From Sphaerobacter thermophilus DSM 20745 (GTDB lineage Bacteria > Chloroflexota > Chloroflexia > Thermomicrobiales > Thermomicrobiaceae), in the NCBI RefSeq assembly GCF_000024985.1, contig NC_013523.1, positions 2,232,001-2,296,000 on the forward strand: DNA of 64,000 bases. Reading direction: 5' to 3'. Shown here one piece after another: positions 24,269-32,055 of the stretch (position 1 is the first letter of the stretch; each line of letters starts with the position of its first letter). The translations under genes were made by a program, and so were the position numbers. The notes under the pieces were generated by a model. The model was given only the letters and a program-made list of their open reading frames with translations. It was not told the DNA's origin and ran no database searches.

Positions 24269-25087
24269 TTAGGCTGCCCCCGGTGGAATGAGGCCCGTCG
24301 CCTGCAGTGCAGCGCGCGTGATGTCGCCGATCGCCTGCTCCCCGGCATGGAGGTCGGGAAGGTTCTCCGTGAAGACGGCAACCACGAGCGTACCGGCCGG
24401 GGTGGTGATGAAGCCGACGTCGTTGACCACGCCGGTCAGGCTGCCGGTCTTCGAGCCCCAGCGGATGCCCTCACCCTCGGGCACGTAGCGCCCGATCCGG
24501 CGCGGGTTCTGCTGCTTCTCCAGCATCGCCAGCATCGCCGTGCAGGACTCCTGCGACGCGGCACGGCCCTCCAGCAGCGCCTGGACGGCCAGGGCGTAGT
24601 CGTCCGGCGTGGCCCAGTTCTCCGGCTCGTCGGGGAGCGCCGGGCGCCCCTTCATCTTCCGGCTCAGGTTCGAGTCTCGCATGCCCAGCGACGCGATCAC
24701 GTCGTTCACCGCGTCGAGGCCGACGAGATCGATCAGCAGGTTGGTTGCGGTGTTGTCGCTGATCGAGATGGTGAGATAGACGAGGTCCTCCAGCGTCAGC
24801 TCCAGCCCGTCGTGCAGGTGCAGCAGCACGCCGCTCCCGGGCGCCTTGTCGGCAGCGCGCAGGACGATCCGGTCGGTCAGCGCGCGTTCCCCGGCGTCCA
24901 CCGCGCGGTAGACGGCGATCATGAGCGGGATCTTCACCGTGCTCGCGGCGCGGAAGCGCCGGTCGCCGTTGTGGCGGAAGGTTTCACCGCCGGGTGCGAC
25001 GATGGTCGCTCCTACCGTGCCTCCCGTCGCTTCGGCTGCCGCAACCGCCGCGGCTACGCCAGACCAGTCGATCGTCATCCCGTCCAT
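24269..25087 (-). CDS. Class A beta-lactamase-like serine hydrolase without signal peptide
   Basis: A 272-residue penicillin-recognising hydrolase. Visible motifs are S49-T-V-K52 (SxxK), S110-D-N (SDN) and KTGS near residue 217. The omega-loop region reads DEPENWATPDD, a shortened version of the class A ExxxN loop. The protein begins MDGMTIDWSGVAAAVAAAEA, which has no charged n-region plus hydrophobic core, so no export signal is seen. It could be a cytoplasmic esterase or amidase rather than a resistance enzyme. Confidence 0.85.
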   Translation of the reverse strand: MDGMTIDWSGVAAAVAAAEATGGTVGATIVAPGGETFRHNGDRRFRAASTVKIPLMIAVYRAVDAGERALTDRIVLRAADKAPGSGVLLHLHDGLELTLEDLVYLTISISDNTATNLLIDLVGLDAVNDVIASLGMRDSNLSRKMKGRPALPDEPENWATPDDYALAVQALLEGRAASQESCTAMLAMLEKQQNPRRIGRYVPEGEGIRWGSKTGSLTGVVNDVGFITTPAGTLVVAVFTENLPDLHAGEQAIGDITRAALQATGLIPPGAA

Positions 25088-26707: not shown

Positions 26708-27157
26708 TCAGGCGATCTCGCTCTCCCCGGCGCCGAGGAAGCGCCAGAGGAGGACGCCCTCAGCGACCAGGATGCCGAGGGTCAGCACCGCCGACGTGAC
26801 GCACCACTGGCAGATGGCCTCGATCACGGCGATCTCGAGGTACGTCAGGTAGGCCGCGTAGAGCGCGCCGGAGAGGACCAGCGCGAAGGCGGCCATAGTG
26901 GCGGTGCTGGCCCAGGCCGGCCGAGTCCGGCGGAGGAATCCCAGGCCGATGACCGCGAGGTACATCCCCATCCCGAGGATCGAGATGGGGATGCCCGCAA
27001 TCTCCGCATAGGGGCTGTTCTGCACCGTCTTGCAGTCGCCGACGGTGCAGACGAGTGCGCCGGTGTCGTAGTGGCTGTAGGTCAGGTATCCGGCGACCAG
27101 CACCCCTGGGATCGCCAGGGCCAACGAGGCGGTCTGCCAACCAGTTCCGCGGATCAC
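26708..27157 (-). CDS. VKOR family disulfide-generating membrane protein
   Basis: About 149 residues with four to five membrane helices. Vitamin K epoxide reductase homologues reoxidise DsbA-like proteins using quinones. The active-site CxxC is CQWC, and a loop pair is seen as CTVGDCKTVQNSPYAEIAGIP with the conserved Ser/Asn region. The GTG at 27157 overlaps the stop of the DsbA-like gene by four bases (GTGA), so the two are coupled. The frame is open upstream to 27325, but there it reads through the DsbA gene in another frame. Confidence 0.92.
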   Translation of the reverse strand: MIRGTGWQTASLALAIPGVLVAGYLTYSHYDTGALVCTVGDCKTVQNSPYAEIAGIPISILGMGMYLAVIGLGFLRRTRPAWASTATMAAFALVLSGALYAAYLTYLEIAVIEAICQWCVTSAVLTLGILVAEGVLLWRFLGAGESEIA

Positions 27158-27897
27158 TGCCCCAGTGCCTGATCGATCGCGGCCTTCAGCGTCTCCCAGC
27201 GACCGTTCCAGCCCTGCAGGAGCTGGCCGTTGATCATAATGCTCGGCGTCCCGGTGACCCCGGCCTCTTTGGCCTCGTTGTACATGGCCTCGACGTCCTG
27301 CTTGTGCGTCCGGTTGTCGTAGCATTCGTTGAACGCTTCCATGTCCAGGCCAACTTGCCGCGCCATCTCCTTCAACCGGGCCTCGCTGAAGGCGCCCTGA
27401 TTCTCCCCGCGCTGGTTCAGGAAGACCGTGTCGTGATACTGCCAGAACTTGCCCTGGTCCTCGGCGCAGAAGGCTGCCTCGGCCGCGCGGGTCGATTCCG
27501 CTCCCAGGAAGGCGAAATCGCGATACTCAAAGGTGATCTTCCCGGTCGCGACATACTCCTGAATGAGCTGCGGCTTCACCGCACGGGTGAAGTAACCACA
27601 GCCTGGTCATTGATAGTCGCCCCACTCCACCACGTGGACCGGCGCGCCTTCCTGCCCCATGACGCGCCCGTTGGTCGGGATGCTCGCGTCCGGCGGCGGC
27701 GCCACCGCGATGTCCGAGACGTCCTCGCTGCCCTGCGGCCGGTTGAGCAGGATCAGCACGACGGCTGCGATCAACGCGACAGCGACCAGACCGCCAAAGA
27801 TCGACATCTGCCGCCGTCGCCGCGCCGCTCGCTCCGCCGCCAGCCGGCGCTCCGCTCTGCGGGAGCGCCGTGCCTCCCGCTCTGATTGGCGACTCAT
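27154..27897 (-). CDS. DsbA-like thiol oxidoreductase with in-frame TGA at the active site; probable selenoprotein (Sec-Pro-Gly-Cys)
   Basis: Read with TGA (27609-27607) as selenocysteine, the gene encodes 247 residues: a basic N-terminus, one membrane anchor (about residues 31-52), a short linker, then a thioredoxin/DsbA domain. The residues around the TGA are HVVEWGDYQ-U-PGCGYFTRA, so the TGA replaces the first Cys of CxxC (U97, C100). The cis-Pro loop GVTGTPSIMING is intact and the frame has no other stop. A SECIS-like hairpin begins 4 bases after the TGA. The ATG at 27897 has GGAGGAG directly before it. It overlaps the VKOR gene, its likely oxidising partner. Alternatives are a one-base TGC-to-TGA lesion or sequencing error, which would split it into 27607-27897 and a fragment from GTG 27579. 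Confidence 0.88.
27567..27609 (-). promoter_or_regulatory. Candidate bacterial SECIS element with its UGA codon
   Basis: After the UGA (27609-27607) and 4 bases, a 7-bp lower stem pairs GCUGUGG (27602-27596) with CCGCAGC (27573-27567), including one G-U pair. A 3-base bulge UUA follows on the 5' side. Then a perfect 7-bp upper stem pairs CUUCACC (27592-27586) with GGUGAAG (27580-27574), and the loop is CGUGC (27585-27581). The loop lies 21 bases after the UGA and has G at its second position. These values fit the known bacterial SECIS rules (loop 16-37 bases from UGA, G among the first two loop bases). Confidence 0.8.
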
Positions 27898-31041: not shown

Positions 31042-31218
31042 AGCCGCCGGTGGAGCGGCATTCGTTTCCGGCGGTAGTTCGTAAAAATACGATGGCCGGG
31101 AGTCGCGGTGGCTCGCCACCCGGACTTGGACCCACGCCCGTGTGGCCCGGCGGCGGCCTGGCGCATGCGACACCTGCGCGGCGAGGGACATCGCCCGGCA
31201 CGAGGAAGGACATCTCCG

Positions 31219-32055
31219 ATGCCTGAGCCATCTCGGCCCGCACTTGATGAGATCCGCCTGGTTGTCCGTGATCGATACGGGGCGGCGGCCCGGGCGGTTG
31301 AGACCGGCGCGGCAACGGGCGGCGGCTGTTGCGGCGGAGCACAGGTCAGCCCGCTCGTCGTGACCGCCTACGACCCTGACGCCCTGCGCGACCTGCCGCA
31401 GGAGGCCGTCCTGGCCGCGCTCGGCTGCGGCAACCCGACCGCGCTCGCGGCCCTGAAACCGGGCGAGATCGTGCTCGACCTCGGCTCGGGCGGCGGGATC
31501 GACGTGCTCCTCTCGGCCCGGCGGGTCGGCCCGACCGGCTTCGCCTACGGGCTCGACATGACCGACGAGATGCTGGAGCTGGCCGAGCGGAACCGGCAGC
31601 AGGCCGGTATCGAGAACGCGCGCTTCCTCAAGGGGCACATCGAGGAGATTCCCCTGCCCGACGCCAGCGTCGACGTCATCATCTCCAACTGCGTCATCAA
31701 CCTCTCCGGCGATAAGGACCGCGTGCTGCGCGAGGCGTGGCGGGTGCTCCGGCCAAGCGGCCGGTTCGCGGTCGCCGACATCGTGGTGCGCGGTCGCCTG
31801 CTGCCCCCGGTACGGCAGAGCCTGAGCGCGTGGTCCGCCTGCGTCGGCGGAGCGCTCAGCGAGGAGGAGTACCGGGAAAAGCTCGCGGCGGCGGGGTTTA
31901 TCGACATCTCCGTCGAGGCGACACGGGAATTGACCCTCGACGAGCTGATGGGCGATTGCTGTGGGGGCGGTGGTGCCGACCTGCAGGCGCTGACCACGCT
32001 CCAGGCGGAGCACGGCACTCTGATCTCGGCCTTCATCCGCGCCCGCAAGCCGTAG
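31219..32055 (+). CDS. arsM: Arsenite S-adenosylmethionine methyltransferase
   Basis: A 278-residue class I methyltransferase of the ArsM type, which methylates As(III) for detoxification. Arsenic-binding cysteines are visible in GGGCCGGA near residue 37, in NCVINLS and in a late DCCGGGG. SAM binding is shown by [20 protein letters not shown] and [17 protein letters not shown] precedes the ATG at 31219; upstream in-frame codons from 31108 belong to the leader. A strong operator-bearing promoter lies upstream, suggesting metalloid induction. Confidence 0.93.

Follow-up and report, generated by a model that had tools for sequence, protein, structure and literature searches.

In Escherichia coli fdhF the SECIS element has a GGUC-type loop, a short upper stem and a conserved bulged U on the 5' side, four pairs under the loop. 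Disulfide formation by a DsbA paired with VKOR is an arrangement already known. The consensus model for bacterial SECIS (bSECIS) elements sets limits of 3-9 nt for the loop, 4-16 bp for the upper stem and 16-37 nt for the distance from UGA to loop, with a G within the first two loop positions and a minimum free energy of -7.5 kcal/mol or lower (PMC13188914). The same source enters the family NF041057 (Rcas_1661 family thioredoxin-like (seleno)lipoprotein) as a 'DsbG-like protein', a selenoprotein with a UxxC motif (PMC13188914).

A gene for a DsbA-like/Thioredoxin_4 protein with an in-frame UGA occupies positions 27154-27897 (minus strand) of the 64,000-nucleotide stretch of Sphaerobacter thermophilus DSM 20745 analysed here (the window). 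It is recognized by matches to PF13462 (Thioredoxin_4; 125.1 bits, 4.1e-36, gathering threshold 23.2) and PF01323 (65.1 bits, 9.8e-18, gathering threshold 25.6), both above threshold, and reading beyond the UGA is marked by differences from the nearest congener that number 17, 14 and 41 at codon positions 1, 2 and 3. The likely start is the ATG at 27897, favored over an upstream GTG. From there the product would have about 247 residues, with a basic N-terminus, a single N-terminal hydrophobic segment, the Thioredoxin_4/DsbA domain (active site UPGC) and a GTP (cis-Pro) motif. The UGA (27607-27609, minus strand) stands in place of the first Cys of CxxC (GDYQ-U-PGCGYF). In the nearest solved relative, BdbD, CPSC aligns with UPGC, so that U falls at the first, nucleophilic position of the motif. 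This genome has one match to the family at E <= 1e-15. Elsewhere in the window, an ORF at 31108-32055 (plus strand) looks by eye like an arsenite methyltransferase (Cys-rich ends, SAM motif), and 24269-25087 (minus strand) encodes a class A beta-lactamase-like protein (PF13354, 8.2e-66).

Around the UGA the minus-strand codons are GAC TAT CAA TGA CCA GGC TGT GGT TAC TTC ACC CGT GCG GTG AAG CCG CAG CTC. The upper stem consists of seven perfect pairs between CUUCACC (27592-27586) and GGUGAAG (27580-27574), and the lower stem of seven pairs, one of them U-G, between GCUGUGG (27602-27596) and CCGCAGC (27573-27567), all on the minus strand. A UUA bulge (27595-27593) separates them. The apical loop, CGUGC (27585-27581), is 5 nt long with G at position 2, and is spaced 21 nt from the UGA. 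The sequence and RNAfold thus bear out every geometrical element of the preliminary description: RNAfold of 50 nt returned its structure, with an eighth lower pair (G-U) added, at -22.7 kcal/mol (z -3.3), and none of 200 dinucleotide shuffles was equally stable. The upper hairpin alone folds at -8.4 kcal/mol. A scan of the window with Rfam gave no gathering-level matches, which is uninformative because Rfam to our knowledge contains no general bacterial SECIS model.

The coding sequence here is rich in GC, and synonymous recodings folded at least as well in 456 of 5000 cases (9%), as did 75 of 2204 coding positions in the window (3.4%). About 12.7% of synonymous recodings had, within the allowed distance, an upper hairpin just as good. 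The earlier view that a chance origin was unlikely was therefore overstated for the single sequence, since 9-13% of synonymous recodings match the fold. After these synonymous and coding-background controls, single-sequence rarity was dropped as the main argument. By itself the hairpin is suggestive rather than decisive, and weak evidence, because 3-13% of comparable coding sequence yields such stability. It is the comparison of homologues, above single-sequence stability, that makes the case for a SECIS.

Homologous sites were compared in 115 distinct sequences, which come from Chloroflexota and from some related archaea and bacteria. The active-site codon is UGA in 24 and Cys (UGC or UGU) in 91, and neither UAA nor UAG occurs at any of the 115. 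The UGA at this identical codon is thus shared with 23 further distinct sequences, including those of other genera and families. Thirteen UGA sequences, the window's among them, have a hairpin of the same type, with an upper stem and NGU loop at the same location; the set shares common ancestry and is small for covariation. In an ungapped scan the loop lies exactly 21 nt past the UGA and is 5 nt long in 10 of the 13 (window included), and in the remaining three a bulge is shifted. The upper stem is 83.5% paired across the 13. At its columns 22/32 six sequences have AU, four GU and three GC; at columns 18/36 the pairs include CG (four sequences) and UA (one). In three homologues (L135, L138 and L139) the difference from AU to GC comes from two codons that also differ in their amino acid (ACC Thr against GCC Ala, and GTG Val against GCG Ala), as would be expected if the RNA pair matters. 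For these 13 related sequences the covariation score of the upper stem was reached by 2 of 500 shuffles, and all slid controls scored lower.

The lower stem behaves differently. Only 64.8% of its cells are paired in the 13 sequences, columns 12/39 form no pair in 11 of them, and the bulge columns 15-17 are variable. The pair counts rule out the lower stem as a conserved part of the SECIS. Conservation or covariation of the stems in UGA orthologues, on which the preliminary description had staked its reading, is thus seen for the upper stem, with compensatory changes, and is absent for the lower stem and UUA bulge. The SECIS core can therefore be placed at about 27592-27574 (minus strand), the upper stem and loop, on the strength of the fold and the compensatory changes; the lower stem and bulge, whose outer extent by RNAfold is 27567-27602 on the same strand, are not defining and are probably auxiliary. 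The RNAalifold consensus of the 13 sequences retains only the three pairs adjoining the loop; a bulge that is shifted in some members is part of the reason.

Not all UGA homologues carry this hairpin. Three (L093, L098 and L099) have a different one, GCCCUGGGUCCAGGGC, which fits the wide variation in sequence reported for bSECIS elements (PMC13188914). Two of the 24 (L123 and L146) gave no qualifying hairpin in the ungapped scan, and a one-base bulge, placed by eye, restores it. A variant with an extra bulged U on the 3' side, two pairs under the loop (UUCG CC CGUGU GG U CGAA), has been noted in L123, L146 and L150. Tandem pairs of DsbA-like homologues, all with UGA, occur in each of two genomes (L141 and L142), where the hairpins are of the form CCGCUA/UAGCGG with a CGUGU loop beginning 17 nt past the UGA. 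One genome (G406) has three UGA-containing DsbA-like homologues (L123, L149 and L150).

The Cys homologues serve as controls. The median stem score is 16 at UGA sites and 8 at Cys sites (Mann-Whitney p about 1e-10), a contrast that is inflated because many of the 91 Cys sites are from AT-rich archaea. None of the 91 reaches the stem score of the hairpin in the window, and nearly all of the nearer Chloroflexota Cys sites have only one to five of the seven upper pairs. Cys stands at the UGA codon in the two closest congeners (84% and 68% identical), which keep five or six upper and six or seven lower pairs. These residual pairs could be a relic of a selenocysteine ancestor or simply reflect close kinship. 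Among named relatives the nearest is a Sphaerobacter MAG (84%). In a tree of 73 proteins the UGA form of the window is sister to the clade of the two Cys congeners; the Sec/Cys label requires at least nine changes on that tree, five of them forced by well-supported branches.

The genome (3.99 Mb, two contigs) encodes all that selenocysteine insertion requires of it: tRNA-Sec (74 bits, with anticodon UCA by ARAGORN), SelA (527 bits), SelB (359 bits) and SelD (380 bits). Of the 19 genomes that carry the UGA, 16 have tRNA-Sec above 65 bits, and the remaining three are fragmented assemblies. The presence of tRNA-Sec or SelA failed to separate UGA from Cys genomes, as Cys relatives carry both; tRNA-Sec is necessary yet non-discriminating because it is also present in Cys-bearing relatives. 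Three other genes in the genome contain UGA, namely selD and two formate dehydrogenases. In selD (G000:C1:928852-929787) the in-frame UGA lies in CAG-U-ASK, and SelD, the selenium donor enzyme, is likely to be a selenoprotein itself. The formate dehydrogenase alpha genes L159 (G000:C2:11325-12113) and L160 (1092964-1093758) each contain an in-frame UGA as well; the hairpins that come after it have GGUCU loops above 7-8 unbroken pairs. These two long stems lend weak support to the earlier idea that a long unbroken upper stem may be a trait of the lineage.

The best account of the hairpin, and very probably the correct one, is that it acts as a bacterial SECIS directing selenocysteine into a DsbA-like UxxC protein, as the preliminary description had proposed; the selenocysteine machinery, the other UGA genes of the genome, the recurrent UGA, the covarying upper stem, the general absence of the hairpin from Cys homologues, the fit to the bSECIS model and a frame that stays open as far as the overlap with the downstream VKOR gene all support this reading. 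In one alternative the UGA would be a nonsense mutation, or an error of sequencing, in a Cys gene that is either decaying or intact, and the hairpin a coding accident of GC-rich DNA. This would agree with the Cys found at this codon in both closest congeners (84% and 68% identical) and with the frequency of chance hairpins in similar coding sequence (about 3-13%). Such an account fails to predict the pattern of 24 UGA, 91 Cys and no UAA or UAG, with the UGA codon recurring in other genera and families; the third-position bias past the UGA (17, 14, 41), the complete machinery and the covariation of the hairpin also argue against it, and it is very improbable. Stable downstream structure can promote read-through. 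This is the sole point, with none direct, for a reading in which the UGA is a real stop, with read-through that is regulated, either through a near-cognate tRNA or as a gated truncation, and in which the hairpin would be a generic stimulator independent of SelB. The aligned residue is a redox-active Cys in every non-UGA homologue, a classic Sec/Cys exchange; the loop distance and loop G fit the SECIS model, and a product truncated at the UGA would lack the catalytic domain. Read-through of this kind is very improbable.

With the hairpin as a SECIS, a ribosome would reach the UGA at 27609-27607 and SelB, with GTP and Sec-tRNA-Sec, would bind the apical stem-loop at about 27592-27574. SelB would then deliver selenocysteine and translation would continue past the UGA. 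The gene product is predicted to be a DsbA-like oxidoreductase, anchored in the membrane and with UPGC as its active site, that would most likely exchange selenenylsulfide/disulfide with the protein of the overlapping VKOR gene.

This VKOR-family gene (26708-27157, minus strand; PF07884, 5.4e-26) overlaps the DsbA-like gene by four bases: the junction sequence is GTGA, in which the stop TGA of the DsbA-like gene (27156-27154) overlaps the GTG start of VKOR. The Cys congeners share this overlap at their loci L117 and L046. VKOR also adjoins the homologue at a number of UGA and Cys loci (L118, L119, L123, L127, L101, L017-L020 and L124), and was not found near many other homologue loci. The GTGA overlap makes VKOR the likely redox partner of the DsbA-like protein, and a start placed inside the preceding stop suggests translational coupling. 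Because of this overlap, decoding of the UGA could also set the translation of VKOR, with selenium supply tuning the whole disulfide-forming pair in a genome where the selenocysteine DsbA is the sole family member matched at E <= 1e-15; this extension is speculative and rather unlikely. No paper combining a selenocysteine DsbA with VKOR was found in the open-access literature.

A gene that ordinary annotation would end at the UGA is thus a predicted selenoprotein. The frequent Sec/Cys switching and the VKOR overlap are more useful points than the SECIS. Sec and Cys forms this closely related, in a single genus, offer a system for the study of SECIS loss and gain, and of the redox benefit of selenocysteine in a DsbA-VKOR pair.

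Compared with described selenoproteins, the protein shares the DsbA fold family and UxxC with the DsbA-like members (PF01323) of the published prokaryotic selenoproteome, and is closer to PF13462. The best curated family is NF041057 (139.7 bits, 1.2e-40), which has UxxC at the same place and both Sec and Cys forms within one family. Unlike that family, this protein scores under 190 bits, the curated cut-off, has an N-terminus that by eye resembles a membrane anchor (no lipoprotein signal) and overlaps VKOR. Ten relatives, nine with UGA, score 128-154 bits against NF041057 on partial sequences. This protein is thus an outlier within a kind already known from the entry of NF041057 in PMC13188914. 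The hairpin resembles the SECIS of E. coli fdhF in that it immediately follows the UGA within coding sequence and has a small loop at its apex that contains G and U. It differs in its seven unbroken upper pairs, its lack of GGUC and its lack of a conserved bulged U. With a CGUGC loop and variable bulge columns it falls outside the fdhF type as usually defined, and the loops of the formate dehydrogenases are of the GGUC type. Against the bSECIS model the preliminary description holds: the 5-nt loop with G2, 7-bp stem, 21-nt distance and energy of -22.7 kcal/mol (upper part -8.4) all lie within the published range. Compensatory change among UGA homologues, a supporting test outside the published model, was found for the upper stem only. 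With G2 followed by U in common with the model, and no feature outside its ranges, the SECIS itself is ordinary and no new type of signal, and the gene adds a new selenoprotein to a kind that is already described.
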